NCBI GenBank assembly: GCA_002104935.1 | Contig: MCGT01000007.1 | Location: forward strand, 496,001 to 560,000 | Direction: 5' to 3' | DNA: 64,000 nucleotides | Origin: Hesseltinella vesiculosa | Lineage: Eukaryota > Mucoromycota > Mucoromycetes > Mucorales > Cunninghamellaceae | Shown here: positions 1 to 61,694 of the stretch, in pieces | Position numbering within the stretch: position 1 is the first letter of the stretch | How the letters are laid out: every line of letters starts with the position of its first letter | The notes under the pieces: generated by a model | What the model saw: only the letters and a program-made list of their open reading frames with translations | The model's database searches: none | What the model was told of the DNA's origin: nothing | Program-made: the position numbers and the translations under genes

Positions 1-2999
1 GTTCTTGATAATAGCTACTCAAGGCAGTACTCGATCAGCAGCAAGTAAAGTACAAGGATCGATCGTCCAAGGATGGCAAGCTGGCTGAAATCCATGTAGT
101 GGATCCCATGGAGAATCGCTTGATCTTTACCAATCGGCCCGCGTATCCCAACTTGATCGACTTTACGCCCACCCCCATCACCCAAGTCTCTGGCGCACCT
201 GCCCCTGGTCATGCTCCCCTTGACGTTGGTCTCACCCCCAAATCATTTGCTATTTTAACTTCGGGTGGCGACTGCAGTGGTAAAAAAAAAAAAAAAAAAA
301 AAACCAAGAAACACTCTTATTTTTTTTAATCAGGTATGAATCCAGCTGTCAGGGCCGCTGTTCGTTATGGTATTGCCAAAGGTTGTAACGTGTACGGCAT
401 TTATGAAGGTTATCAAGGTATATCTTTTTTTTAATTTTTTTTTTTTTTGTTGGGGGTGTTGATTCATGCCTATTGTGAAAATGAAACGGCGACTTCTCTT
501 CCTCACCTGATTTATTTTTCTTGGTTAGGCCTGGTCGATGGCGGCAAATACATTCGAAAAATGGATTGGAAAAGTGTACGGGGATGGCTGTCCGTGGTAA
601 GGGATTCTCTTGACCGCCTTGTGACCCAATCTCACCTCTTTTTAAAAGGGAGGCACGTCCATTGGAACGGCAAGATGCATGGCTTTCAAGACACGTGAAG
701 GTCGCCTGAGTGCTGCTGAAAATCTGGTCAAACATGGCATCGATTCGCTGATTGTCTGCGGTGGTATGTAGCATCCGTCTCTTTCTTTCTTCCTCACCTT
801 CTTCTCTAGGTGACGGCAGCTTGACAGGTGCCGATGTGTTCCGATCGGAATGGGGTTCGTTGATCGCGGAATTGCTCTCGACGGACCGCATTACCGACCA
901 ACAGGCCAAGACCTTCTCCCATTTGACCATTGTGGGCATGGTGGGATCGATTGATAACGACATGGCTAGCACTGACATCACCATTGGGGCTGCCAGCTGC
1001 CTTCACCGGGTGTGTGAAATGGTGGACTCGATTGGAACCACCGCCTCGTCCCACTCGCGTGCTTTTGTGATCGAAGTCATGGGCCGCGACTGTGGTTGGG
1101 TGGCCATGATGGCTGCCATTGCAACAGGGGCCGACTTTGTGTTTATCCCCGAACAACCTCTTGCTGCGGGTGAATGGCAGGAAGCCATCTGCGACGTTGC
1201 TCACCGCCATCGTGAAATGGGCAAGCGCAAGACCGTCATCATTGTCGCCGAAGGCGCCTTGGACTCCTCCCTCAACCCAGTCAAATCCGAAGACATCAAG
1301 AATATCCTGACCGAGCGCCTTGGCCTCGATACACGCGTCACCATCCTGGGCCATATCCAGCGCGGCGGCACCCCATGTGCCTTTGACCGCATCCTGGCCA
1401 CCACCCAATCCGTGGCTGCTGTCGAAGCTGTCCTCCAATCCACCCCCGACATGCCGTCGCCCTTTATTGGCTACGTCAACAACAAGGTCACCTCCGGTCC
1501 CCTGATGGACGCTGTCGCCCTGACCCACCAAGTGGCCGATGCCATCCACAAAAAGGAATTCGACCGCGCCATGCAGCTGCGCGATCCTCAATTCCGACAA
1601 GACTTCACCATCTACAACGCTACCTCTGTCAAAGGCAACGATTCGCTCCTTCTGCCCTCCCACCGCCGCCTCCGGTAAAAAAAAAAAAAAAAAAAAGCAG
1701 CAGCAGCTGGCTCATCCTTTCCATGCTAGCTTTGGTATTGTGCATGTGGGTGCGCCAGCCGCCGGCATGAATGCAGCAACACGCACCGTGGTACGCTATG
1801 CCCTGAACCGTGGCCATGTACCCGTCGCCATCTCCAACGGCTTCGATGGTCTCCTCAAAGGCGCCCTGGAAGAAATGACTTGGATCGACGTGGATGGCTG
1901 GAGCAATCTAGGCGGCTCTCACCTGGGCACCAACCGCCATGTGCCCGGCAAACACATCGACATGGGCATGCTCGCCTATCAGATGCAGCGTTACGAATTA
2001 CAAGGCCTGGTGATCGTCGGCGGTTTCGAAGCCTACAGCAGCCTCCTTGCTCTGAGCCAGGCACGAGACAAGTACCCATCCCTGCGTGTCCCTCTCTGTG
2101 TGATCCCAGCCACCATCTCTAACAACGTGCCTGGCACAGATTATTCCCTCGGCTGCGATACCTCGCTCAATATGATTGTCAATGCCTGCGACGCCATCAC
2201 CCAGTCTGCTCGCTCGTCACGCCGCCGGGTCTTCGTCGTCGAAGTCCAAGGCGGTCGCTCAGGCTTCTTAGCTGTGCAGGCCGGCCTGGCTTCTGGCGCC
2301 AACACCGTGTACATTCCCGAAGAAGGCGTCACCCTCGACCGCATCCAGTCCGACGTCCATCACCTCATGGCCCTGTACCTGGACGATGACGCCGACCGCT
2401 CCGAAGGCCGCATTGTCCTCCGCAACGAAACCGCCAGCGACACCTACACCACCGACGTCATCAGCAACATCTTCAAGGAAGAAGGCCATGCCCTCTTTGA
2501 CTCCCGCACCGCCGTGCTTGGCCATGTGCAGCAAGGCGGCGCTCCCTCGCCGCTCGACCGTATCCGAGCCAACACCCTCGGCTTCCGTGCTGTGCAGTTT
2601 TTGGAAAAACAGTCCAAGGATGCCCTGAACCAATTTGCTGCCAAACATAACAATGCTACTGATGATGACCCGGTCCTACACACTTCCTCCATCCCAGTCC
2701 CCAACCGACCCATCGAACTATGCACCGCTCCCAGCTCTGCCGCCATCGTTGGCTTCTCTGGTTCTGGCGTTCGTTGTATTTCCGTGGACGAATTGATCCG
2801 CATCACCGATGTCAAGAACCGCAAGCCCAAGTCTGCCTGGTGGTATGTTCAACGTCCTTTTGTAAGTTTTTTTAACCGAAGCAACGAACCACTGACTCAC
2901 TTTTTTTTTTTGTCCTTGCAGGTGGACCTTCTTGCTGGTCGAGGTTTATTTACTCCCGAAGCCCAAGCTTTGCACTGTAAAGACACAACTCATTCGTAG
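1..2999 (+). CDS. ATP-dependent 6-phosphofructokinase, 5' end outside window or unresolved
   Basis: Phosphorylates fructose-6-phosphate in cytosolic glycolysis. The exons that join in frame are about 15-279, 334-417, 529-596, 649-763, 810-1674, 1730-2861 and 2922-2999. The N-terminal half carries the glycine-rich ATP site ([13 protein letters not shown]), GGDGSLTGA, the catalytic SIDND and GRDCGW. The C-terminal half restarts at [16 protein letters not shown], the degenerate regulatory repeat of the tandem eukaryotic enzyme. The 1675-1729 intron begins GTAAAA with a run of A. Its acceptor is fixed by frame: only the AG at 1728-1729 joins ...HRRLR to FGIVHVG. The last intron is 60 nt without a stop, so retaining it would be silent for frame. 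Stop codons in frame at 6-14 show that the true first exon or exons lie upstream. The family call is firm; the start is unknown. Confidence 0.93.
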
Positions 3000-4494
3000 A
3001 CGCCTCTTTCCCTTTGTAAATAAAAAAAAAAGAATGAATAGACCTTCAGAGGCTCGACACCGCTTTTTTCAGCTGACCAACACCAATTTAGATAAAACCA
3101 ATTGTCCTACATGCATGAACACAAGCACTTGCAGCCATGTCGTCAAAAGGGCAGCCAGAGCCCATTGACCATTCTCTTCTTTTTTTTTTTTTTTTGAATA
3201 CTCATCGGCTGGTTATCTGGCTGTAGGCAAACCGACCATCAAATGAGACTCGTCCAAGTGGGTCGGGTTTAGCTGGTCTTTTTTTTTTTTTTTTTGGTTT
3301 TTTAAAGTTTGGGCGAAATTAAATAGCAGTGCAACCATGGCTAACAGCGCGTCGTGAGTGCCAAGAAGCCTTTGCAGGAACAACATCCTCATACCCAGGT
3401 GGTTTGGGATGCACGTAAGATCATTGTGTAGCCAACGTGGGCGAGATAAGAAATGAATCTATCGGAAGCATGCTGACATGACACCGGCAGCCTCGCGCAT
3501 CTACCAAGCGCTCTGCTCAAGCTGCACGTCTCTTTTGTGCATCGCTCGTTCTTCAGTGCAAGATCGGAGAGGTCTGTGCTTTCAGTCATGGTCTTTTCTC
3601 ATCCATATTGCTCGAGTGCAACACTTTGGGCATGATGCGATTTATGGTTCCCGTGGGAGGAAATGCCATATTACTTTTTGAACCACCCAAAAAAAAAAAA
3701 AACAAGACCCGTTGGTAATGGTCGCCCAGCTAACTTTTGATCCGTTCTATGTTGGCACCTCCAACCAAAAGAAGAACCATCTTTCACCAAACCAATCAAC
3801 ACCATGATCTCCACCGATGAACCAACATCCTCTATGGACGAGCAATGACCTTAAGCACAGGCCCCTCTGTCCTCCCAACGTGGAAAAAATAGACTCAACC
3901 TCAGCCTTGGCCATCAAAGCCACGCCCAATTCTCCCCTGAAGGATTGCCTATCCATTTTCCCCCCAGCAACTTGGCAGCCTGTCACTAAAATTGTCGTCA
4001 TGCTATCACCATTCTGGCCGTGGCCAATGAAAGCCAAGGGCCAAAAGCGCACATTCGGATCAGGAGCAAAATAAATAACACCTATGAAAACTGCAGGAGA
4101 GGCGTCATGTACAAAAAAAGTAAAAAAAGAGAGACGAAACAATAGAACAAAAAAAAAAAAAAAAACGTGCCAAAAAGAGTCACCCGCTGATTCAAAGGGA
4201 AATCAAGTGCAGTTTTCGTTGCCCGTTTTGAATTTTAGGTTTCTTTCTTCCTTTTTCTCTTCCCCATCTCTCCTTGTTGGACATACTCTTTTTATTGTTT
4301 GCTATCGTTAAACGTTACCAATTACCATCCATTACTTTTTTATTTCATTCTACGTTTACCTAGCGTTTAATTATTCTTGCTATAAAGAATCAACAACCGG
4401 CTGAGCATTCTTTAGGGTAACCCTTGCTTAACAAACTTTTTCTTGACTCACCTTTTTTTTTTTTTTTTTTTGGTACATAATTCCTCCCTCAGTC
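3000..4494. other. Intergenic, about 1.5 kb, no supported gene
   Basis: An AATAAA-like signal lies near 3018, just after the phosphofructokinase stop. There are several T or A runs of 15-17. Overlapping open frames at 3747-4142 (minus, 131 codons) and 3817-4074 (plus, 85 codons) have no recognisable domain and no intron structure. Positions about 3711-3770 match the dispersed repeat at 61.4-61.7 kb. A T-run at 4452-4471 lies about 25 bp before the kelch gene start. Confidence 0.6.
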
Positions 4495-7017
4495 ATGCAA
4501 TCCATCTCGGGTATCATTACACAAGTACGATCTTCCAAAGGAGAGGTGCCGCCACCTTTGGTTGGACCTTCGATCACCGTAGCAGGCGACCAAATATTTG
4601 TGTTTGGTGGCCGCCTTGTGTCTAATCGTAAAATGACAAATCAACTCTATGTCATGGATGTCCACACCCAAACCTGGACCCGATATATTCCTTCACCCGA
4701 TTCCGACAAACCACCTTCGCCCCGCTACTTCCATTCGGCCAATGTCTACAAAAAAAATGCCTTGATTATCTTTGGCGGCATGGGCTACGCTCGCCCCAAC
4801 GACAACAACAAGGACGACGCCGATGGCCTCTCTGTGCTGGACGACCTGGTCATCCTCGATCTCGAAACCATGACCTGGCGACGCCCTACCATCCACCCTT
4901 CCCTGTTTGCTCCGCGCGCTCGCTACGCTCACCTGGCCGAGGTCACTGAGGACAAGCTCATCGTTATCGGTGGCCAAGACGGCAACAACTCCTACCTGCA
5001 AGAACTCAACATCCTCGATCTCAAATCCTGTGAATGGGTCCAGGTCAAGGACATCGAGAAACAGGTCGGCGGCTACCGCTCCATCGCCGTCTCCACCCCG
5101 CCCGGCACCCGCCTGCCTTCGGCCATCAAGGACAGCCTGGGCGACGACCCGTCCTGGTCACATCACGACGACAAACGGCCCTCCAGCGCCACCGTTCCCT
5201 CCCAATCGTCTTCGCACGATGAACCCAACCCTATTTATCTGTATACCAACTACAATTTCACCAACGTCAGCCGTGAACTGCAACTTGTCTTTTTACCGGC
5301 CGCTGGCAACAACCCCACCGTCGAGGACTGCTCCCAATACATGACAGGCTCGTCCATGCCGCCCGGTCTTCGCTTCCCCACCGGCCACACCCTTGGACAT
5401 CACCTCATCCTCGCCGGCACCTATCTGTCCCAGCCCAGTCAGTCTTACAGCATCTGGTCTCTCAACCTCGGCACCCTCACGTGGGGCAAAATCGAAACAG
5501 GCACCGTGCTGGCTTCGGGGTCTTGGAATCGAGGCGTCCTCCACGAACCCACCAACCGCTTCCTCGTCTTTGGCAACCAGCAGCGCAGCCTCCTTGGCGA
5601 CTATAATCACCGCCAAACCAACTTTGACCACATCGCCATGGTCGATCTCGAAGCCTTTGGTGTCTACCAGCTCCCCCGCATCACCTGCTCCACCCTTGCG
5701 CAAGAAATGGGCCTCAGCCTCCTCAACGAGCCTGCCGTCTCTGATTTCTACATCATTACCCGCGAAAACCAGTCTATCCCCATCAACTCCGCCGTCGTTG
5801 CCCAACGCTGGCCCTTTTTTGCCCAGCTCCTCGCCTCTGACGAAGACGACGAGAAGAAGAAAAAATCAGACCTCACTGTCCTTGACCCCGACAGCCACTC
5901 GCCCACCACCTCCCCCACCGCCGCCTCCCCTGTCGACCTTCCCACCTCCCCCCAGTCTGCTGCCGCTCCTGAACCCACCCTGCTCAAATCCCAAACCATG
6001 CTCTTTCCTTACCCTTACCCCGTCGTCATTGCTCTGCTCCAATTCATCTACACCGACAATCTGTTGACCGCCCAGCAATACCAGCCCCATATCCTCGCCC
6101 AGCTCCTTCTCCTTGCCGACATGTACGACTTGCCCCGCCTCCAAGAACTCGCCCGCCACGCCCTGCACCAAATGCTCAACATGTCCACTGCCCCTTTGAT
6201 CTTTGAAACCGCTGCCCTGTCTCATCAAACCAGCCTGCAGATCCGTGCCCTCAAGATGATGATCGCTGCCAAGAAAATGATCCAGCAGCAGCAGCAGATG
6301 CTTCAAACTGGGCCCCCTGCTGCCGCCCCTGGCCAACCCATCAACTCTCCTCCTTTGCAACAACCCACCGGTACCGCCACCCCACCCGACGCCCTCTCCC
6401 CCACCATCAGCCCCTCCCAATCCACCCTGGACACCTCCCAGAAGGCCATTGCCTCCCGGCGTCCTCACCAACCCCCCTTGCCATCCGTCACCCCCACCCC
6501 GCCTTCCTCCAACCTCTCCTCCCAATTCCTACATCTGCAACGCCAACTCTCTCTTGCCTCTACTCAGCTCTCCCCCTCTCAGCAAATCCAAATGCAGCAC
6601 CAGCAGCAGAACCAACAGCACCAGCGTCAAAACTCTGTTTCCGCCTCCTCTCCACCCTTCTCCGCCAAACGAACCCCCAGCTCTGCCTCTCCCCCCCAGC
6701 CAGCCGTCACCAGCCCTGGCCGTTATGATCGCTATGCCGCCAGCAATGCCCAGGATCCTTACAATGCTCTCGTCGGCACCCGCTCCTCTACCGCCATGTC
6801 CACCCAGCCTGCCTCCTTTGGCGCCCTCTCTTCTACTGCGGCCTCTTCACGCCTCCATGGCTCCGTCTCTTATATGTCCAAGTCCTCTTCCATGCCCACG
6901 CACGAGGCCCCCGGCATAAGCCCCCCCTCCACACCACGCCAACCAACCTTTGACGCCGATACCATCCAAAGAAAAAAGGAAAAAAAGAAAACCTTTTTTG
7001 GCGGCAAACTCTTTTAG
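4495..7017 (+). CDS. Kelch-repeat plus BTB domain protein
   Basis: Intronless, 840 codons. Residues about 15-420 contain kelch blades, each with a hydrophobic strand ending in GG (FVFGGRL, IIFGGMG, IVIGGQD). A BTB/POZ region follows at about 420-600, with the YIITRENQSIPINSAVVAQR and LLQFIYTDNL segments, interrupted by an acidic and Ser/Pro insert. The remaining 240 residues are Pro/Ser/Gln-rich low complexity and end in a basic tail. Kelch-BTB proteins are commonly substrate adaptors for cullin-3 ligases. In fission yeast a protein of this architecture (Ral2) acts in Ras signalling, so that is a candidate role, not shown here. The ATG at 4495 is the first in frame and follows a T-rich promoter stretch. 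Confidence 0.85.
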   Translation: MQSISGIITQVRSSKGEVPPPLVGPSITVAGDQIFVFGGRLVSNRKMTNQLYVMDVHTQTWTRYIPSPDSDKPPSPRYFHSANVYKKNALIIFGGMGYARPNDNNKDDADGLSVLDDLVILDLETMTWRRPTIHPSLFAPRARYAHLAEVTEDKLIVIGGQDGNNSYLQELNILDLKSCEWVQVKDIEKQVGGYRSIAVSTPPGTRLPSAIKDSLGDDPSWSHHDDKRPSSATVPSQSSSHDEPNPIYLYTNYNFTNVSRELQLVFLPAAGNNPTVEDCSQYMTGSSMPPGLRFPTGHTLGHHLILAGTYLSQPSQSYSIWSLNLGTLTWGKIETGTVLASGSWNRGVLHEPTNRFLVFGNQQRSLLGDYNHRQTNFDHIAMVDLEAFGVYQLPRITCSTLAQEMGLSLLNEPAVSDFYIITRENQSIPINSAVVAQRWPFFAQLLASDEDDEKKKKSDLTVLDPDSHSPTTSPTAASPVDLPTSPQSAAAPEPTLLKSQTMLFPYPYPVVIALLQFIYTDNLLTAQQYQPHILAQLLLLADMYDLPRLQELARHALHQMLNMSTAPLIFETAALSHQTSLQIRALKMMIAAKKMIQQQQQMLQTGPPAAAPGQPINSPPLQQPTGTATPPDALSPTISPSQSTLDTSQKAIASRRPHQPPLPSVTPTPPSSNLSSQFLHLQRQLSLASTQLSPSQQIQMQHQQQNQQHQRQNSVSASSPPFSAKRTPSSASPPQPAVTSPGRYDRYAASNAQDPYNALVGTRSSTAMSTQPASFGALSSTAASSRLHGSVSYMSKSSSMPTHEAPGISPPSTPRQPTFDADTIQRKKEKKKTFFGGKLF

Positions 7018-8013
7018 TCACTCTCTCATTTTTTTTAATCCATGTTCAAAATCCCATCAATACACTTTTTTTTACTCCCTTTCGTTACACTGTTCCATCT
7101 CCCTCTACACAGGAATGAAAAAAAAAAAAAAAATGACAACCAGATGAACTGGGCTGCAATTTTTAAAAGAAACCGCAGTCATCAAGAGTGCCATCGTGTT
7201 AACTTTGACTGTTGCATACCGAGTGCCTTGGAATTTTCTGATCCTGCATTTGGAAAGGGAGTGCAGTGCCATTTCCGACCGTGATTGGTTGGCTATCGAT
7301 GTATAGCACGGACAAAAAGAAGATAAAAAAATAATAAGAAGGAAAACCAAGAAAAATTGTGCAAAAAAAAAATATCAGTGTTAAGCATTCTGCAGTAGCC
7401 AACCAATCACAGCCCGCATCGCATTTTCTTATTTTGCGGACAAAGTCAAGTTTTGCATCGGCGGAGGTTGAACCTGGCTGTTTTCGCTGTACTGCCGATG
7501 GCGGCATCTTGATTGGCCAAAAATCAAAAGATGGCCTTGTCTTGAACGCATTGCTTTCAGATGCGTGCAGCGTAGGTGGCCTGCACTAGACGCTGGTATG
7601 AGACATGGCAATTATTGTATATGGTCCGTTGATAAGGCCTGTCGTTTGATACTTACCGTAGTTGTTCCCGCATAAACCTACACTTAAAACAAAAATTAAA
7701 CTGGATGAACCCAGACCCTTCGCGACAGCACCTTCCATCAACAATAACGACAATGCAGTTGCATTTCATGACGTTGTGAGAAAAAAAAAGCGTGCTCGAA
7801 AGCACAACACTGGAGGGGATAGCGCAGACCAAAGTACTACATCGCCATCTCTTTTTTTCTCCTCGCATGGCCAAGTAATCATCCACAACTGCGAAACTTC
7901 CTAACTGGAACGGCTACGTAAAAAAAAAAAAAAAAAAAAAAAATGCATGATGAGCACCGTCCCCATCACTGCTCTCCATCTCATTCCAGCTCGATGCCCA
8001 GATACAGGACCTT
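7018..8013. other. Intergenic, about 1 kb, with a perfect 15-bp inverted repeat
   Basis: No gene is supported. The 15-mer at 7281-7295 and its exact reverse complement at 7396-7410 contain CCAAT/ATTGG boxes. Several small open frames (7199-7507 minus, 7662-7904 plus) have no recognisable content. Confidence 0.55.
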
Positions 8014-8207
8014 CTCCTTTGACCATCTATTCTCGGCCACCCAAGCCGCCTTCCTAAAACAGCAACAACAAGCCAACTCAGTCGCCCACCCGCCAGAGAA
8101 AGTAATTTTTGATGCTGCCCATCTGCAATTTAGGCCCCCAATTTTCTGTCGAGCAGCAAGGGCACGACGTCTAAAAAACATTCACATCAAAAGTACCCTT
8201 TCCTGGT

Positions 8208-8614
8208 GTCGGCTTTTTTACTCCCCAACGTCCACGCTCCCACGGCTACCACCACGCTTATGGAAAATACCGCCAACCCCGTCGCCCTGGTTCATCGGTG
8301 GACAAGATCACGGACGACCTGCCCAAAAGGTATGTTGGGCCGGTGGACAGTCGAGGTGTCCCTGTGGTCATAGTTAGCACGAAAAGGAAAAAGGTGCGCC
8401 ACAACCCTTTTTCCTTAAAGAACAAGCCTTCCAACTCCGACCACTGACACCATTTTTGGACCTCTGTCCGCCCAACCTTTTTCTTTTTCTTTTCCTTCTT
8501 TTACCTCTTTGTGGTGGTCCACCGAACCACCAATATAAATATCCCATATCTTTTATCAAAATAAAGAAGTAACTTAGACTTATCTTTTTGCTCTGCCAAG
8601 AAAGTGACACTGGT
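8208..8614 (+). mobile_element. Arm-specific 407-bp insertion with a coding-like 3' end
   Basis: This stretch is present only in the left arm. It is bounded by CTGGT on both sides (8203-8207 and 8610-8614), consistent with a 5-bp target duplication. From 8208 an open frame without a start codon runs about 79 codons to a TGA at 8445-8447. Its composition is protein-like and basic, with a segment reading DKITDDLPKRYVGPVD. It is followed by AATAAA near 8561. It may be a captured 3' end of a gene; a deletion in the right arm is the alternative. No terminal inverted repeats or poly-A tail are obvious. Confidence 0.5.
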
Positions 8615-8661
8615 CCAAAAAAATAAAAAATAAAACAAAGCGAGAGTCGGCAAAAAAGATA

Positions 8662-8732
8662 TGCGCGATCGGGGAATCGAACCCCGGCCCTTCGCGTGGC
8701 AGGCGAAGATTATACCACTTAACCAACCGCGC
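8662..8732 (-). tRNA. tRNA-Gly (GCC anticodon), left arm
   Basis: 71 nt. Acceptor stem GCGCGGT pairs with ATCGCGC, with a discriminator A. The A-box is TGGTTAAGTGG and the B-box GGTTCGATTCC. The anticodon loop is CTGCCAC, with anticodon GCC. A run of T follows within about 10 nt on the transcribed strand (Pol III terminator). There is no intron. It lies near the outer end of the left arm and is identical in sequence to the tRNA at 31702-31772. Confidence 0.95.
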
Positions 8733-10547
8733 TTTCTTGTTGTGTAAGCCACCGAAACAGTCAAATTTCATAAAACGGCAATTCGGCGTTATGTATAGCC
8801 GAGTGCCGTGTTGAGCACAAATGCCCTCCTTTCCATGCAATTGCGCCTCTTTGCCGGCCATATTTTTCTCTGAATGCATCTTGCTATTGTAGTGTACAAG
8901 CAGAATTCGCTATTATAGCCAAAACGATCCAGTGTGGCCTGAAATACGGACGCCAAGCTGAATGGACGTCGACAGCGGTGTCGGGATTGCAAATACCAAA
9001 AAAGGATGACACGGGGAGCTGAGTACTAATCCACCGGACTGCCGGACTACTGCCGGATTGAGTAAAACAATAGGGGATTTTATTTTACAGCCTTTGGAGA
9101 AGCATTGGAATGAATCGACGCACAATAAATAGCAGCTGTGTGAATTTGCTGTTTTTTTTGATGACGGACGATACGGAATCCCCAGTGACAGCTCTTTTTA
9201 GTCGCACTGGCCATCTGAAGTCGGGTCAGGTTAGCAAGTAGAGTCAAAATAACAAATGAGTGGGCCTGTTTTCCAAAACAGGCTTCTTTAGCTTTGGTCA
9301 CTGGTTTTTTTTTGGTTGAGAGATTCCAAAAGCATGGTCCAAATTCTCTCCGTAGGCTAGTTTTGCACAACCGGCCCAATGGGTTTTCATTTTGGCTTTG
9401 ATTCCTAACCTGCCCTATTTACCTTTTCTGTCTTTTTGAATTTCCGCCGCTGGGCGGCTCGTGCCTATAGTTTTTTTAGTGCATGTTTGCTCAAGCCCTT
9501 GCTCATCCCCCCGCTGCCTGCGAGAGTTGAAGTGCTAATCATGGTCATCTCTTACCATTTTGCACTGGTCTGCAAAATTTGGAGCAGATTTATTTAGAGC
9601 AATTTCGCACTTTGATTTTTGACCATGTCGCCTGGGGGTCCTCTGGCAAAAATGACCGATTTTTCATTTTTTTTAGCTGGAGAGTCGGAAATGCCAAAAC
9701 GTAGTTGCGCAAAACTTGGCTGGGCAGTCTTCACCAATCGTCCTGATTTTTCCAGCTACATCATCATTCGTGTGTTTGCGCACTTGTGCACTATTACACT
9801 TTGAACCGATCACTCAAAAGTGCTGTGCAGCGTTGCTATTTTTTTTTTCGAAATGAAAAAGGATTGGCGATTGCCATATTCAGCATCCGCAGAGCAGCTT
9901 TTTTTTTTGGGCAGCACAGCAGCTCTTTCTTTTTTTTATCAGGCTTCTGTGGTTATTTTCTTTCTTTTCTTTACATCGTCATGCCTCGTCTTTTTCTCTT
10001 TACGCTAAATCACAAAGCACCCTCCATTACGTCTACCGCGTTTTATTTTTGAAACTTGTTCGTTGTTTAGGAATGTCTCTCAATAACAAAACGATACAAA
10101 GGTTTCAAGGTAGGCTTCTGATAAGTTTTTTTTTTTTTTTTTTACTCAACATCCAACTCTCCAAGAACCTATAATTATTATGCACTTTTTTAGGTAAGAA
10201 GCAGGCAGCCGTCGTGTTACGGAATGGCAGTGGCTTTAACAAGAGTCTAGCCATGTGTCTTTGTTACAGGTGGCACACTCGAAGCATCCAGTGCAATGTT
10301 ATGACTCTGCGCCGTCTTTTTTTTTTTTTTTGGCTAACATTTGCAAGATGGCGAGGGACTGAAACGCGTTTACTCTAGGGTAGTGGACTATCAATGCTAT
10401 AATGAATGCGCTAAGCACCAGCAGCTTTGGATTCTAGGTTAGCCCTGAATAGAAAAAAAAAGTGCGCGTCGCCTTGATTTTTTTTTTTGATGGCCAACAG
10501 TTGAAGATCCTGTATTTACTGAATCGTACCAGCAACACCAGTGACTA

Positions 10548-10789: not shown

Positions 10790-11018
10790 TCACTGAGGGA
10801 CACAGTTGTGATCGAGAATGTCAATCCCGGGCCGGGACGGTGGGGACAAAAAGTCTCATCCCCCGATTGGTCCCCAGGCTGTCCCGTATGTGTCGCAACC
10901 TAGGGACACCCTAGTGACCGAGAATTCCAGTCCCGGGCCGGGACAGTGGGGACAAAAGTCTCATCCCCGGACTGGTCCCCAGGCTGTCCCGTATGTGTCC
11001 CTACCCAGGGATCCACTG
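10790..11018. repeat. GC-rich tandem repeat, about 106-bp period
   Basis: Two units (10810-10915 and 10916-about 11018) share GACCGAGAAT, TCCCGGGCCGGGAC, GTGGGGACAAAA, GTCTCATCCCC, TGGTCCCCAGGCTGTCCCG and TATGTGTC. A decayed fragment of a third unit precedes them from about 10790. Many GGGAC/GTCCC boxes face each other, so the strand could fold. It differs in base composition from its AT-rich surroundings and lies just upstream of the mitochondrial uS3 gene. An open frame across it (10818-11072) is a by-product of the repeat. Confidence 0.85.
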
Positions 11019-29788: not shown

Positions 29789-32013
29789 TAGTCACTGGTG
29801 TTGCTCATACGATTCAGCAAATTCAGGATCTTCATGACAATGACAATGGCTAGCCCACAATAGAAAAAAAAATCAAGGTGGCGCACTTTTGTACACACGC
29901 GCCATTTGAGATCACTTGTAATGCCAAAAAAAAGTGCGTCGCCTTGAATTTTTTTTCTCCTCAGGGCTAACCTAGAGTCCATGCTGCTGGTGCTTAACGC
30001 TGCTATTCTTGCATTGATGACCCACCACCCTAGGGTAAATGCAGTCCAATTCCTCGCCATCTTCCAAATGCTAGCCAAAAAAAAAAAAAAAAAAGAACAG
30101 GCGGTGAAGGGACATAACAACGCATTGGATGCTTCAATGTGCTACCTGTAACAAAACGCATGGTTAGACTCTTGTTAAAGCCATTGCCATTCCATAACAC
30201 GACGGCTGTATCCTTCCTACCTAAAAAACCGCATAATAATTAAAGGTTCTTGGAGAGCTGGATGTTGAGTAAAAAAAAAAAAAAAGCTTATCAGAAGCCT
30301 ACCTCGAAACCTTTGCAGCGTTTTGTTATTGAGTGACATTCCTAAGCAACGAACAAGCTTCAACAAAAAAAAAAGCATGGTAGAAGTGAAGGGTGTTTTG
30401 TGATTTAACGTAAAAGAGAAAAGACGAGGCATGACGATGTAAAGTTAAAAAAAAAAAAGAAAGAGCTGTTGTGCTGTCCGAAAAAAAAAAAAAAGCTGCT
30501 GTGCGGAAGCTGAATATGGCAATCCCACCTCTTTCATTTCAAAAAAAAAAAAAAAAGCAACGCTGCACAGCACTTTTGAGTGATCGGTTCAAAGTGTAAT
30601 AGTGCACAAGTGCGCAAACACACGAATGATGATGTAGCTGGAAAAATCAGGACGATTGGTGAAGACTGCCCAGCCAAGTTTTGCGCAACTACTTTTTGGC
30701 ACTTCCCACTCTCCAGCTAAAAAAAATGAAAAATCGGTCATTTTTGCCAGAGGACCCCCCAGGCGACATGGTCAAAAATCAAAGTGCGAAATTGCTCTAA
30801 ATAAATCTGCTCCAAATTTTGCAGACCAGTGCAAAATGGTAAGAGATGGCCATGATTAGCACTTCAACTCTCGCAGGCAGCGGGGGGATGAGCAAGGGCT
30901 TGAGCAAACATGCACTAAAAAAAATATAAGCACGAGCCGCCCAACGGCGGAAATTCAAAAAGACAGAAAAGGTAAATAGGGCAGGTTAGGAATCAAAGCC
31001 AAAATGAAAACCCATTGGGCCGGTTATGTAAAACTAGCCTACGGAGAGAATTTGGACCATGCTTTTGGAATCGCTCAACCAAACAAAAACCAGTGACCAA
31101 AGCTAAAGAAGCCTGTTTTGGAAAACAGGCCCACTCATTTGTTATTTTGACTCATATTGCTAACCTGACCCGACTTCAGATGGCCAGTGCGACTAAAAAG
31201 AGCTGTCACTGGGGAGTCCGTGTCGTCCGTCATCAAAAAAAACAGCAAATAAACACAACTGCTATTTTTTTGTGCGTCGATCCATTCCAATGCTTCTCCA
31301 AAGGCTGTAAAAAAAATTGGAAAGCGTAGGGAAGTAAACCCAAAAAACGCATTTGTTTTACTCAATCCGGCAGTAGTCCGGCAGTAATCCGGCACTCCGA
31401 CGGATTATTACTCCGCTCCCTGTGCCATCCTTTTTGGGTATTTGCAATCCCGACACCGCTGTCGAGGTCCACTCCTCTTGGCGTCCTTATTTCAGGCCAC
31501 AGTGGATCGCTTTGGCTATAATAGCGAATTCTGCTTGTATACTCCAATAGCAAGATGCATTCAGAGAAAAATGTGGCCGGCAAAGAGACGCAATTGCATG
31601 GAAAGGAGGGTATTTGTACTCAACACGGCACTCGGCTATACATAACGCCGAATTGCCGGTTTATGAAATTTGACTGTTTCGGTGGCTTACACAACAAGAA
31701 GGCGCGGTTGGTTAAGTGGTATAATCTTCGCCTGCCACGCGAAGGGCCGGGGTTCGATTCCCCGATCGCGCATCTCTTTTTTGCTACTTTTTGCTTGCTT
31801 TGAGTTTTTTATTTTTTTGACCAGGAAAGGGTATTTTCATGCCTGTTTTGCTGATTTTTTTTTTAGATGTCGTGCCCTTGCTGCTGGACAGAAATGTGGG
31901 GGGCACCTGAACATCAAAAAATATTTTTTTCTGGTGGGTGAGAGACTGAGTTGGCTTTCTCTTTTAGGAAGGCAGTATGGGTGGCCGAGAACTGATGCAG
32001 CATTGTCAAAGGA
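29789..32013. repeat. Right arm of the large inverted repeat (with tRNA-Gly)
   Basis: Reverse-complement partner of 8014-10547. It is collinear over about 2.2 kb, including the tRNA-Gly, but lacks the 407-bp insertion. Near the inner edge a minus-strand frame (29788-30120, 110 codons) has a hydrophobic tail (LAIVIVMKILNLLNRM). The corresponding left-arm sequence is diverged and broken, so it is not supported as a gene. Left and right arms differ mostly by homopolymer length and scattered substitutions. Confidence 0.85.
31702..31772 (+). tRNA. tRNA-Gly (GCC anticodon), right arm
   Basis: 71 nt, same sequence as the left-arm copy. Cloverleaf arms, A-box and B-box are intact, and the anticodon is GCC. 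The T-rich terminator CTCTTTTTTG follows at once. It is oriented outward from the inverted-repeat spacer, mirroring the other copy. Confidence 0.95.
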
Positions 32014-32951: not shown

Positions 32952-33257
32952 TCAATCAAGACACACAAGCATGACTGATGAGGCCATCATGTTAATCACA
33001 TGAGTTGAACTGCTTGGACCGCTTGAGCCGGGCGTGAACCGCTTGAACCGGATGTGAACCGCCAGAGTGGAGTGTGCTGGGTGAGCTCTCATTTTTGAAT
33101 TTTTTTTTCTGTCACTCTCTTTCCAGTCTAGGAAGACGAGCATGTTTGATGAAGCAATCATGCTAACTATGCGATTTGAACCGTTTGGGACGCATAAGCC
33201 GCGTGTGAACCGCTTGAGCCGGGCCGGAACCGTTTGAGCTTTTTTTTTTTTTTTTTC
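32952..33257. repeat. Duplicated block with phased GAACC motif arrays
   Basis: Two related units (about 32952-33125 and 33126-33257) start with similar CATGxxTGATGAxGC(A/C)ATCATG sequence. They carry arrays at 33004-33062 and 33171-33239. Within the arrays, GAACC or GAGCC boxes recur at alternating 11 and 9 bp, a 20-bp period with core GAACCGCTTGARCCGG. The same array type occurs upstream of the related gene copies at 48.4-49.2 and 60.2-61.1 kb. A T-run (33240-33256) separates the second array from the gene copy at 33293. Confidence 0.8.
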
Positions 33258-33292
33258 AAACTCTTCTTTGCCACACATCTTATCAATGTACT

Positions 33293-33530
33293 ATGGAGGA
33301 GATAACCTGTGAACTAGCTATCTGTATGTTGTATTGTATGGAGTTTAATGAAACAAATTCTAGCAAAGTAATGAAGGAGGTTGATATTGGCGATGTAGAT
33401 CCTTGCTATGAAGAGGATCAAGAATACCCGTCTTGGTCACGATCAAGCGAGTCTTAGACGAGCCTCATCGTTACAAAACATCGACCCTCGAACGCTACGG
33501 TTTGTTCCATCGTGGGTGTGTCTTATTTAT
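33293..33530 (+). pseudogene. Frameshifted copy A of a small multicopy gene family
   Basis: Begins MEEITCELAICMLYCMEFNE, closely matching the intact frame at 60218-60442. A one-base loss near 33431 breaks the frame. Reading on in the next frame restores PVLVTIKRVLDEPHRY, the same segment as copy B. No domain is recognised. It lies 53 bp downstream of a GAACC array. Role unknown; the frameshift marks it as a probable pseudogene unless sequence error is responsible. Confidence 0.7.
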
Positions 33531-34976
33531 ACATAACCATATTATTTAGCAGTTTTATTTTTGAAATTCTGGAACGGCAGCTAGGGATAAAGCTATTATA
33601 TTTTTTTTCCACTCAGCTACGATTTGGAACGCTGCAAGATTCTGTACGACAGTTGAACAGAAGCAGGGTTCCAAATCTTTGAGGGCATCGGGTTTCTTGG
33701 TCAACGTTGTCACATTTTCTTTGGCAAACAAAAAGCATGCAAACGGCTATGTTTTGCTGATGAAAGGGAAGAAAAAAATAGCCTGGAGGTGGCGGCGAAT
33801 AGGGAGCGGTCGGAGCCTAGAATGGCCAATACAGTCGTTGCCTTTTTTGGTGAAGAAATGGAGATGAAGGCGGTCATTTTTACAGTATTTGCAGTCAAGG
33901 TTTTTTTTTTTTCATGGTTGGTGCGAATTTACATGACTCTTCTTGTAAGAATACATGGCAGAAATCCGAGCTAGTTCAACCAAGGACCATTGAAAATGGA
34001 GAAATGGAGGGACAGTGCCGTTTCCCGCTGATATCAAAAGGAGTTTAAAAATGGCAGACGTCATTTGTGCCGATCTCATGGGAGATTGCCGGCCATGTGT
34101 GGCAGCCACGTTTTTGATTTTGCTTGACTATTTCCGAGCAGGCTTGTTTGTGAATGGCGAGAGGGGATGGAAGAAAGAGAGAAAGACACTTGGAAGGAGG
34201 GGCAAGGTCACATGCGCAGTGCTGCTGGAGACGAGCTGAACGGATGATGACGAAAGATGGCCCTCAAAAAAAAGACCCTTGGGGCATTAGGTAATCTTCT
34301 GAAAAAGGGTTGACCTGGTTTTGTCACGGGCCGAAGGGATGATGGAGTTGAAAAGGAGGTTAGGGCTGGGCACCAATAACAAAGGGAAGAAAGAAAGGGC
34401 TGCGATGGGCCTGGCGTGTTTATGAAAAAAAGGTGGGGCGGTGGGAAATAAAGGGCGACCCAACGTTCAGGCTCGTCATTGCGATGGTATAAAGTAGGGT
34501 CGGCCCTATGACGTTCATTAGGATAAGGATCCGTTACTCGAGAAAGATGTCTTGGTTTCCCCATGGGATAAATAAAAAGAGCGGAGTAGGCTTAGCAATC
34601 TGTCTCAGCCAACCCTGATGAATGACCCTTTTTTTAAGATATTTTTTGACAGGGCTCTTACGTAAACCAACACGGCTCTTGGAAGGCAGATGAACTCGAG
34701 CCATGACCATCAAGCGGGGAAGACAGCATGGAATAGACCAGAGCAGGAAGGAAAAAGAACACAGCGTGTCCCAGTGATTTTGAAGGTGGTCAGGCACAAT
34801 TCAGCCGTTAACCAATCATGACTGCAGGCAAGGTTTTAGACTGGAAAAAAAAAGGGTCGACGAAAACCCCTTTTTTGGTTAAAGCTCTCCCTGTCATGAC
34901 TTTTTTTAAATGGCCTTTTTTTTTTTTTTTTTTTCCTCCTTCCTCTTCTCATCTCCCGATCTTTTTTATTCTTTTT
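33531..34976. other. Intergenic, about 1.4 kb
   Basis: No gene is supported. Open frames (33679-33867, 34208-34564 minus) lack recognisable content. A T-run at 34916-34934 precedes the next gene. Confidence 0.5.
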
Positions 34977-48436: not shown

Positions 48437-49166
48437 TCAAAAAAAAAGAGCAGTAGAATAACGTAAAAAAAAAGAAGTTAAAAAAAAGGAAGAAAAGTAA
48501 GGACAGGACTTGCTTTTGTCAAAAAAAAAAAAGGTGCGGTGAAAAAAAAAGGTGCAAGGCTCGGGATGATGAACCCATAATTGGCAACTTGTACCATCCT
48601 TCATTTTATACAAGAGTCTTCGCCTTGCATTGCTGCCGTGGAGTCTCTTTCTTGTGTACGGTTCATCAAGGAATTCAACCTTCATTCTTGTGCACCATTT
48701 AGTAAATCCCATGAAAGAGTTAGAGTCAAACTTGGAACAATATCGTAGGACTGTTAGAAAGACTTCCTTTGAGGTGATATATGTCAAAGTGTAGCTGTCG
48801 TGATTGGTCATATCGCCAACGGTGAATGCAGAATTTATAACTTGAATAATTTGGGAGTCGCATGCTTTGCAAACAGCAAAAAGAGTGTCAAGGTCAGTCA
48901 CATCAGTTACGCATAGCAAATCATGTCCTTAGTTGGTCTTTTTCACTGTATTCCAATGGTTCACTCTTCGACAAATGTCTTTTGTATGTTATTGGCGATG
49001 CAAATATTCTTGTCTTTGATGCAAGTACAGGGTGTTCAGGATCTGTGAGATAACAAAGCTCCAAATCTTCAAGTGAAGCTAGTTTATTTGTCAAAGCCGA
49101 AACGTTTTTATCAGTATGTTCCAATGCATAAAACATACAAAGCGCCTGTTCTTTTGAAATTGACAT
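48437..49166 (-). pseudogene. Copy C of the multicopy family, interrupted frame
   Basis: Two adjacent frames read as one protein. 49166-48921 begins MSISKEQALCMFYALEHTDK and aligns to copy B at the A-x-CMxY...E and DPxxPV positions. 48919-48437 continues with VTDVTDLDTLFAVCKACDSQ and about 130 more residues ending near a T-run. The break near 48925 matches a gap of about four bases relative to copy D (60873-61125). No domain is recognised. A GAACC motif (49363-49403) lies about 200 bp upstream. It could be expressed if an unrecognised intron removes the break. Confidence 0.6.
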
Positions 49167-49362: not shown

Positions 49363-49403
49363 AGCGATTTGTACTGATTGAACCGCTTGAACCAGGTGTG
49401 AAG
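49363..49403. promoter_or_regulatory. GAACC motif upstream of copy C
   Basis: GCGATTT, then GAACCGCTTGAACC. It shares the GCGATTTG start and core of the arrays at 33171 and, reverse-complemented, at 60631-60700. Only one full repeat is visible. Confidence 0.5.
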
Positions 49404-59220: not shown

Positions 59221-60217
59221 GGCGTTGAATCAAACACAATCAGACAATCGATGTTGATAGGACGACAGGGAAGTCGGTAAGGTGGGATGGTATAAGGCAA
59301 AAGAACAGCCAGCAAGAGAGAGAGAAAAAAAATCAAAGCAATCAAACAGAATGGATTGTCACCAACGGAAAAGAAAATGGAAAAAAAAAATAACCAAGAG
59401 GCACCAAAAAAAAAAAAAGGCGGCGTGTTTTTTTTTTTCGACGCAAGCTGAGATTGTCGCGCATGCACAGGGAAGACCAGCTGCTCGCAAAGATGACACG
59501 CTGGTGGTAAGCAAAAAGGTTGTCTGGTGCGCAGCGCTAAGCATATGGTTGAATGCGATTGCCAATGCACCTTGGGATGTCGACACTGCCCTGGCCTTTG
59601 CTTGCAACGCTCTGGATAACTCCGAACACGGGCAGCCGTAAAAAAAACCATCGCTTTTTTCTCCCTTTGTTCCCGAACCATGCGCTCTCTTGACCATTAC
59701 TATAAACCAAAGCCAAAAGAAAAAGTAGGGACATTATAAAGAAGGAATGGACGATGACGCCCTTTGTGTGTGTAGAGCCATTCTTTGATCAGTGTCCACG
59801 TGACAGAGGCCAATCCTTCCAACCACCAGCGCTTCTGGCCAACGGACGACGTGCCAGTATTTGTGCTGACCGCGACTTCTTTGCTTTGGCATAAACCTAA
59901 ACCTAATCGGCTTGTGTCTGTGTGCCCCACTACCAATCACCTCAGCCCGTATTGGCACAAGCCTGCAAGCTATCAAGATAGTCGCCGGTCCTCTGCTCAT
60001 GCATCTTTCCCTTGAGCAAGACCTCTGAGCTACAACCCACAAAGGCACGCATGGCCCATCGGTCCTCTATTCAAATTGCCGCCACAGCATTACAACCCAC
60101 GGGAGAGAATAAAAATAGTTGTATCGCTTTATCATCTTGCTGCCTGCCATTCCAAAATTTCAAAAATAAGATTGTTAAATAATGTGGCTATGATAAATAA
60201 TAAACATCCAGGAATAG
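59221..60217. other. Intergenic, about 1 kb
   Basis: No gene is supported. Open frames in both strands (for example 59282-59641 plus, 59004-59681 minus) are made of A/T runs or overlap Cks1. ACAACCCAC occurs twice (about 60034 and 60094). Confidence 0.5.
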
Positions 60218-60442
60218 TTAAGAACCTTGAAATGTAGCGTTCGAGTGATATCCTTTGTAACGATGAGGCTCAGCTAAGATTCGTTTGACGGTGACCAAGA
60301 CAGGTTTTTCTGGATCGTCTTCATAATAAGGATCTAAATCACCAGCAATGTCAATTCTCTTCAATAGTTTTCTAGAGTTCGTTTCGTTAAACTCAACACA
60401 ATACAGCATGCATATGGCTAGTTCACGAGTTATCTCCTCCAT
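60218..60442 (-). CDS. Copy B of the multicopy family (intact short frame)
   Basis: 74 residues starting MEEITRELAICMLYCVEFNE; includes DIAGDLDPYYEDDPEKPVLV and KRILAEPHRY. Not recognised. It is the only copy in the window with an uninterrupted N-terminal block, but compared with copy C (about 230 residues) it looks truncated after about 74 residues, or continues through an undetected intron. The start is the internal Met 60442, homologous to the start of copy A; an in-frame upstream Met exists but its sequence is not shared. A GAACC-type motif (60529-60545) lies 87 bp upstream. Confidence 0.5.
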   Translation of the reverse strand: MEEITRELAICMLYCVEFNETNSRKLLKRIDIAGDLDPYYEDDPEKPVLVTVKRILAEPHRYKGYHSNATFQGS

Positions 60443-60528
60443 AGTGCAATAAGAAAATGTATGGCAAAGAAAAAAGGTCAAAAATAAAGGCAAGAAAGAG
60501 CCAGAGAAAAAAGATCCCCTGGTAAAAG

Positions 60529-60700
60529 GTTCAAGCGGTTCACACTATGTAGGCTAGGTTGAAAAGTGGGCAGAAGAGAAAACTATCAAAAAACGAAGCA
60601 AAACAAAAAAAAATAACGAGATGTTTCGCAGCTTAAGCGGTTCGTCCCAAGTTCAAGCGGCTCACACCCAGTTCACATCCAGTTGAAGCGGGTCAAATCG
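60529..60700. repeat. GAACC phased array between copies B and D
   Basis: Reverse-complemented, 60631-60700 reads GACCC, CAACT, GAACT, GAGCC, GAACT, GAACC and AAGC at spacings 9, 11, 11, 9, 11, 9, the same phasing as at 33171-33239, after a shared CGATTTGA start. A single extra motif, TTCAAGCGGTTCACAC, lies at 60530-60545. It stands between two head-to-head family copies. Confidence 0.75.
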
Positions 60701-60872
60701 CGTGCATAAGATGGTTGAGTCGTCTAACCTGCTTTTTCGGTTAGGGTGATAAAACCATGATAGATGCAATATGGCTTTCATGCAAAAAAAAAAAAAAAAA
60801 AATCACAGGCAATGAGTGTAGCCCTATTTGGCTTGGTGTGAACCATTTTTTTTTCTTTTCTTCTAGCAAACA

Positions 60873-61125
60873 TGTCAATTTCAAAAGAATAGGCTTTAGA
60901 TTCACTTAGATTTGGAGCTTTGCTATCTTACAGACCCTGAGCACGACCGATTGCACTCGCCATGAACATACAAATGATGTTTGACGAAGACTGAGCCATC
61001 GGAATACAGTGAGAAAGACCAACTTTGTAAGGACTTGCTTTGCTATGGACGTGACTGACCTTGACATTCTTTTTCTTGTTATAAAGCATGCGATTCACAA
61101 GTCATCCAATTTATTAATGCTAAAC
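60873..61125 (+). pseudogene. Degenerate copy D of the multicopy family
   Basis: Starts ATGTCAATTTCAAAAGAA as in copy C, then has a stop, an internal deletion of about 60 bp and further stops. The block GAGCTTTGCTATCTTACAGA, and later GCATGCGATTCACAAGTCAT, match copy C nearly base for base. It is clearly broken. It lies head to head with copy B, about 430 bp apart. Confidence 0.7.
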
Positions 61126-61396: not shown

Positions 61397-61694
61397 GTGC
61401 GGAAATTGAATTTGACCACTCGTTTCTACATTTTATTTAAAAAGGTTGCTACACAGCACGTTTGAGTGTCAGATCGACCTGAAATTTTGTAAGGGAACGC
61501 AAATGCATGAATGATGATGGTGCTGAAAAAAATCGAGTCACTTGGTGAAGGTCGCCCGGCCAACTTTCGATCCGTTTCATTTTGACACCTCCGATTCACC
61601 AGCTTAAAAAAATGAAAAATTGGCCATTTTCCCCAGGGGGACGCCCAGGCGATCTGATAAAAAATCACAGTGCAAAGTTGCTCTAAATAAATTC
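61397..61694. repeat. Third, diverged copy of part of the inverted-repeat arm
   Basis: Matches part of the right arm (about 30500-30805, same orientation) at roughly 65-75 percent by eye, including ATGAAAAATYGGYCATTTT, CCCAGGCGAC/T and GCTCTAAATAAAT. It lacks the tRNA. A short piece of the same family lies at about 3711-3770. Confidence 0.7.

Follow-up and report, generated by a model that had tools for sequence, protein, structure and literature searches.

A paired gene family of Hesseltinella vesiculosa with upstream tandem arrays and a predicted serine-recombinase-type domain

Introduction

The maize element MuDR is a two-gene transposon whose convergent genes start near its alike ends, and IS607-type elements carry a MerR-like N-terminal DNA-binding domain. 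Here we describe a gene family found in a stretch of 64,000 nucleotides (nt) of the fungus Hesseltinella vesiculosa (G000:C67:496001-560000; referred to as the window). The species belongs to the order Mucorales (taxonomy look-up) and its genome comprises 27.05 Mb in 85 contigs, which are denoted by C and a number. The full gene of the family is predicted to encode an N-terminal domain (N-domain), an RFX-like winged helix and a serine-recombinase-type domain, while a solo gene encodes the N-domain alone. The two genes stand side by side at many places, and tandem arrays lie preferentially upstream of them; such a pair with its arrays is called a module below.

The C-terminal domain has the catalytic fold and the YxRKS motif in common with the serine recombinases (resolvase/invertase, TP901-1 integrase, IS607 TnpA). 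The family differs from them in having no Pfam Resolvase match and apparently no paired arginines, in the other domains placed in front, and in its solo partner and arrays. A DNA-binding part, putative in the family, preceding a C-terminal serine-recombinase fold is also the arrangement of IS607-type elements (according to the title of 6dgc), although in the family two domains are predicted ahead of this fold. Two papers deal with IS607-type elements and Fanzor/TnpB in eukaryotes (PMC10711439, PMC3627910). The family resembles MuDR in that 13 of 17 pairs are convergent, with near-identical starts in some pairs only; it differs in its enzyme fold and in having no terminal repeats common to the modules. 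Compared with the RFX winged-helix DNA-binding domain, the middle domain is 14% identical and its neighbouring domains differ. The literature on Hesseltinella vesiculosa, Mucorales, serine recombinases, RFX, IS607/Fanzor, MuDR, tandem-repeat multigene families and domestication, judged at title level, yielded no such combination of two genes and arrays. We know of no system that matches a two-gene layout with arrays of differing units, and to our knowledge the domain architecture is found nowhere else.

Domain architecture and predicted folds

Open frames of up to 441 codons indicate that the N-domain is only the beginning of a longer gene. The folds described here are predicted models. In a fold search, the model of the C-terminal domain shows the serine-recombinase catalytic fold. 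YxRKS is located at the end of the first strand in 12 of 13 aligned rows, with YVRKC in the other, in agreement with the Arg-x-Ser feature of the active site. After the third strand, all seven rows covering the region read D/T/S-F/Y-A/P-G-L/F, and the arginines of an Asp-Arg-...-Arg pattern are seen in none of the seven, as mapped by eye from the alignment and secondary structure. In gamma-delta resolvase the paired arginines are R68 and R71.

The fold search with the N-domain gave no reliable match and no evidence for a new fold either. Pfam searches of five family reading frames, with introns unremoved, gave no row above the cut-off; Resolvase (PF00239) is absent from these rows and has no genome match at an expectation value (E) of 0.01 or below. 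A PDB sequence search found no convincing relative, the sole hit in one search being a designed barrel that was taken as chance, and viral contigs searched with one family protein contained no relative. An earlier note on this DNA had stated that the family fits none known; this holds for sequence families, but the serine recombinases are a structural relative. The whole family is probably recombinase-derived, and by these models the fold of its C-terminal half is already known.

Copies in the window

The window contains four copies, whose starts are at 33293 (A, plus strand), 49166 (C, minus), 60442 (B, minus) and 60872 (D, plus), at the four places given in the earlier note. The copies and their arrays are as follows.

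60218..60442, minus strand: copy B, an intact solo N-domain gene of 74 codons (open reading frame)
60520..60700, minus strand: degenerate GAACC-type array between B and D, with GAACC at 60528, 60537 and 60639
60872..61125, plus strand: copy D, the remnant of a C-like full gene, broken at several points (matches to C, translation)
33006..33231, plus strand: GAACC array upstream of A, inside two 125-nt repeats (73% alike)
33293..33457, plus strand: copy A, a solo N-domain gene with a frameshift after about 46 codons (N-domain match; inverted match to B)
48593..48769, minus strand: copy C, downstream part with a tblastn match to the winged-helix (middle) domain (residues 114-174, E 0.006)
48975..49166, minus strand: copy C, N-domain coding part (N-domain matches, translation)
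49379..49402, no strand assigned: short GAACC array upstream of C, with GAACC at 49380 and 49389

B and D lie head to head with 430 base pairs (bp) between their starts, and both are members of the family, B intact and D reading MSISKE at its start and then a stop. A and B are a sister pair (33264-33580 against 60144-60471, 77% across 330 columns), as are C and D (48830-49081 against 60897-61121, 73% across 257 columns); D also has inverted matches to C of 68 nt at 85% and 37 nt at 89%. Residues 1-65 of B are modelled by AlphaFold2 with a predicted local distance difference test score of 93.3, and B is 65% identical over the N-domain to the solo copy on contig C18. The N-domain exon of C is stop-free and its open frame runs on to about 48920; in the downstream stretch the similar reading frame is longer than the tblastn match, and tblastn found no recombinase-domain match beyond it. 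The label of a small gene does not suit C and D, which come from a longer one.

Size and spread of the family

All figures for family size are lower bounds. The B protein has 48 N-domain matches in the genome at E of 0.01 or below (44 at 0.001). The earlier suggestion of a mobile or amplified module is upheld as to amplification, but not as to mobility, since no target duplication or empty site was found by eye (C6/C26, C18). The 354-residue protein at C1:941k matches 118 stretches of the genome and is identical to the hypothetical protein DM01DRAFT_1330986 of Hesseltinella vesiculosa.

Searching public proteins with a profile built from full-length as well as partial members gave 10 matches, the query and some fragments counted in; those with an organism name come from Hesseltinella, Apophysomyces, Absidia repens, A. 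cylindrospora, Phycomyces nitens, Parasitella, Radiomyces and Rhizopus microsporus. With a profile of the solo copies, 19 short proteins were retrieved, in organisms including Hesseltinella, Halteromyces, Helicostylum, Cokeromyces, Sporodiniella, Rhizopus arrhizus and Apophysomyces; this search admits short candidates only, and the 19 are not all proven solo genes, P0026 for one extending into the middle domain. All 11 names checked belong to the Mucorales, A. cylindrospora and R. microsporus being checked through another species of each genus. Between the solo gene at C1:1429k and a Halteromyces radiatus protein, 45 of 61 residues match. The solo-type protein P0018 has a repeated V-W-T-G-V in its predicted start region, which looks like read-through of an array upstream.

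Paired layout

We surveyed 29 places with their flanks, excluding C26 as a near-copy of C6; six were viewed with about 1.5 kb per side only, where partners may be overlooked, and matches on C4, C14, C15 and C23 fall outside the survey. A solo gene stands beside a full-type gene at 17 of the 29: tail-to-tail at 13, head-to-head at three (C1:941k, C61 and B/D) and in tandem at one (C10:348-350k). The head-to-head pair on which the earlier note was built is one of these 17, but the usual layout is tail-to-tail. In four of the 17 the full partner is visible as fragments only: C9:9k (E 8e-4), C10:403k (E 0.006), C17 (E of 1 or below) and C5:144k (interrupted). The partner of C10:403k and of C5:144k, both tail-to-tail, is fragmentary; the C5:144k module (2363-4625 of its fetched piece) seems to be interrupted by a retroelement-like reading frame, named by eye. 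The N-domain of the full partner was not found at C37.

The matched stretches of nine of the 13 tail-to-tail pairs end 41-357 bp apart. The gap is 0.8 kb at C6, and at C1:1699k an array sits between the partners (1.9 kb). Pairs with most of both partners visible number nine tail-to-tail, two head-to-head and one tandem; by hand calculation, at least nine tail-to-tail among 12 has a chance near 4e-4 under four equally likely orientations. Among the unpaired places, six have a full-type gene with no solo gene seen and four have a solo-type gene with no full gene, in addition to A and C. The two solo-type copies in tandem at C34:828k were scored as unpaired, and a weak second N-domain match at C27 (E 0.004) was left uncounted.

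A shared first half and a divergent tail

Twelve pairs were aligned. Five share about the first 47 codons and then split abruptly, six are diverged throughout and one is alike throughout. The nucleotide identities of the N part and the tail in the split pairs are 0.97 and 0.41 (C9), 0.99 and 0.35 (C61), 0.91 and 0.39 (C10:348k), 0.86 and 0.56 (C11), and 0.83 and 0.46 (C7), and these five also share promoter parts. The N-part identity is 0.55-0.61 in the diverged pairs C6, C1:941k and C10:354k. The pair alike throughout, C5:144k, is 98% identical over 416 bp and has a common stop codon in both N-domain copies.

N parts of partners are more alike than those of randomly paired genes (0.67 against 0.47 in 11 modules without C5:144k, reached in 0 of 20000 random pairings; 0.70 against 0.46 in 12 modules with it, again 0 of 20000). 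For the tails the values are 0.38 against 0.34 (389 of 20000) without C5:144k and 0.42 against 0.35 (33 of 20000) with it. At C61 there is one nucleotide difference in the first half and 35% identity in the other, which point mutation from one duplication can hardly have produced; it is most simply explained by conversion or exchange of the first half. A similar split is seen between the Rhizopus arrhizus protein P0026, which extends into the middle domain, and the solo-type protein P0027, which is not a known partner of it (41/41 against 7/22). The ratio of nonsynonymous to synonymous substitution rates (dN/dS) between partners is 0 to 0.28 in the N part, for the four pairs with measurable dS, so both partner proteins look constrained; dS values of the tails are mostly saturated.

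Upstream tandem arrays

The earlier note had proposed a test of whether the array accompanies the gene more often than chance. Of 38 copies, 13 have a tandem array scoring at least 100 in Tandem Repeats Finder in the first 1 kb upstream; of 2000 random 1-kb pieces of the window, 51 touch one. The 38 copies come from 26 loci, with the window copies and C26 excluded, and the control pieces overlap, lie away from copies and hold one 216-bp array. Arrays make up 18.1% of the sequence 0-500 bp upstream of the copies, 1.0% of that 0-500 bp downstream and 0.47% of the control.

The units differ from place to place: CACACCACGG at C18 (about 246 copies on one side and about 212 on the other), GTCCACTCTT at C10:350k (121 copies), TGGTCAACA at C37 (20 copies), GAACCGGTTCACTTTTTTGCT at C10:354k, and one of 65 bp at C5:422k. 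All 32 genome matches of the C10:350k unit are at its own module; the C18 unit has 131 matches, and the best 100 of the 131 are all at its own module. The units are more alike one another than shuffled units are.

The arrays of the window score lower. At a score of 100 Tandem Repeats Finder reports no array base within 3 kb of any window copy; A's array alone is scored (33018-33062, period 20, score 69; 33005-33050, period 9, score 46), and 60520..60700 has no row at score 40. GAACC is rarer in the window than expected by chance (100 matches against 138.5), all 100 shuffles having at least 100. Same-strand GAACC pairs spaced exactly 9 bp occur three times, all upstream of copies (33036/33045 for A, 49380/49389 for C and 60528/60537 for B); this number was reached in one of 300 first-order simulations (mean 0.16), with the spacing picked post hoc. 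The earlier note had GAACC always 50-350 bp upstream; most of the motifs are about 60-350 bp from the starts, and the one at 60840 is 32 bp from the start of D.

Eight exact genome sites match the window unit TGAACCGCTTGARCC: four upstream of A, B or C, two at C67:573k and two at C24:302.7k, and at the latter two places no recognisable family copy was found in 1.3 kb. The earlier note named arrays genome-wide with no gene nearby as refuting a module, and these sites go part of the way towards that; the C10:350k unit and, among the matches listed, the C18 unit fall at their own modules only. With one mismatch TGAACCGCTTGARCC also matches long arrays of the 9-bp TGAACCGTT, located at the end of contig C49, where the inverted orientation occurs too, and at the start of C44; no recognisable copy was found in 1.6 kb at each, and the assembly may break there. 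Outside the window GAACC-type units accompany the copy at C10:354k, and the remaining copies have other arrays or none; GAACC is one array kind of several and not general to the family.

Neighbouring repeats and transposon-like sequences

Tc1-like DDE transposase reading frames, named by eye, adjoin the modules at C6, C61 and C1:941k; at the last they lie inside a perfect 1648-bp inverted repeat that surrounds the module. The C6 and C26 pieces share a 5-kb duplication (2328-7301 and 3089-8125 of the fetched pieces) comprising the module and a Tc1-like element, with one outer piece at the opposite end. The inverted arms there were considered as the module's own ends and dropped, as their outer parts look like Tc1-type ends, which have a TA-CAG form.

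The window also contains a 1.9-kb inverted repeat (8610-10460 and 29949-31824, 88% identity). It is a dispersed repeat, a part of which is found again at 61448-61692 and, outside the window, close to several family copies. A 105-bp tandem repeat of two copies (10796-11011, 87%) lies near it.

Discussion

Taken together, the recurrence of the pair, the upstream position of the arrays and the half-shared proteins suggest DNA self-recognition, in the form of a two-gene module whose proteins bind its array. We favour this reading tentatively, and well short of even confidence. Both the N-domain and the winged helix may plausibly bind DNA. The N-domain would bind the upstream tandem array of its module, partly through a variable segment (residues 52-58). 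Where solo and full proteins have residues 1-47 in common, they could assemble jointly or compete on one array, and their differing tails may recognise distinct sites. The recombinase-type domain would act as a bridge between array copies, either with altered chemistry or as a pure scaffold, the latter being suggested because two catalytic arginines appear replaced; its chemistry may be lost and its role may be to bring array copies together. Such binding might in turn affect expression or rearrangement.

Three results weigh against self-recognition. The GAACC unit also occurs where no family copy is recognisable, the split is not general (five of 12 pairs), and a test for co-variation of array and protein was negative, unit similarity being independent of protein similarity. 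The first and third of these also fit a close rival, which we consider possible but doubtful: an ordinary, fast-expanding Mucorales family of recombinase descent, whose arrays are minisatellites of repeat-rich, recombination-prone stretches and whose shared N parts stem from gene conversion between neighbours. That many copies have no nearby array, that the C5:144k pair is alike throughout, and that there are neighbouring reading frames judged by eye to be Tc1-like, MULE-like and retroelement-like are all in keeping with such a family. However, minisatellites of this kind sit poorly with the strong one-sidedness of the arrays, and plain conversion does not predict that similarity ends near codons 44-50 in five modules.

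The other close rival, a MuDR-like transposon of serine-recombinase type, seems to us unlikely, if a serious candidate. Its two converging genes would lie between arrays serving as transposase-binding ends, the solo protein would be a helper or repressor, and most copies would be old and decayed. The family is multi-copy with several broken members, the genes at C18 and C6 are tail-to-tail with inverted arrays, and the recombinase fold would supply the enzyme. The recurrence of the C6 module at C26 inside a 5-kb stretch at 98% could be read as transposition, but the duplication includes the neighbouring Tc1-like stretch, and by eye neither C6/C26 nor C18 shows a target duplication or an empty site in the one strain available. 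The two catalytic arginines appear absent. Common end sequences were not found among the modules: the array units vary and two, among the matches listed, fall at their own module only, the true module ends being undefined.

A DNA-inversion switch, in which promoter and first codons form inverted repeats and inversion swaps the upstream region driving the full gene, would suit the inverted, alike promoters and N parts that flank a recombinase-type gene at C9, C11 and C7, but it is very improbable: the arrays at C18 and C6 are alike on both sides, so inversion there changes little, tandem and divergent layouts occur, no inverted allele is seen (one strain), and the catalytic residues are in doubt.

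Within the self-recognition reading, one further proposal is rather unlikely: that the modules are a new kind of eukaryotic self-recognising locus. Each would evolve its own array with a matched protein pair, a recombinase-derived bridging protein and a counterpart of the N-domain alone, one half of which is kept alike and the other forced apart, and would so be isolated from dozens of related modules sharing its nucleus.

The family adds to the Mucorales a protein group with no Pfam match whose C-terminal half is, by its predicted fold, a serine recombinase. If the arrays are the targets of their own protein pairs, one genome would hold many natural pairs of DNA-binding domain and site, with the variable segment already marked, and DNA recognition and its divergence would be open to direct testing.
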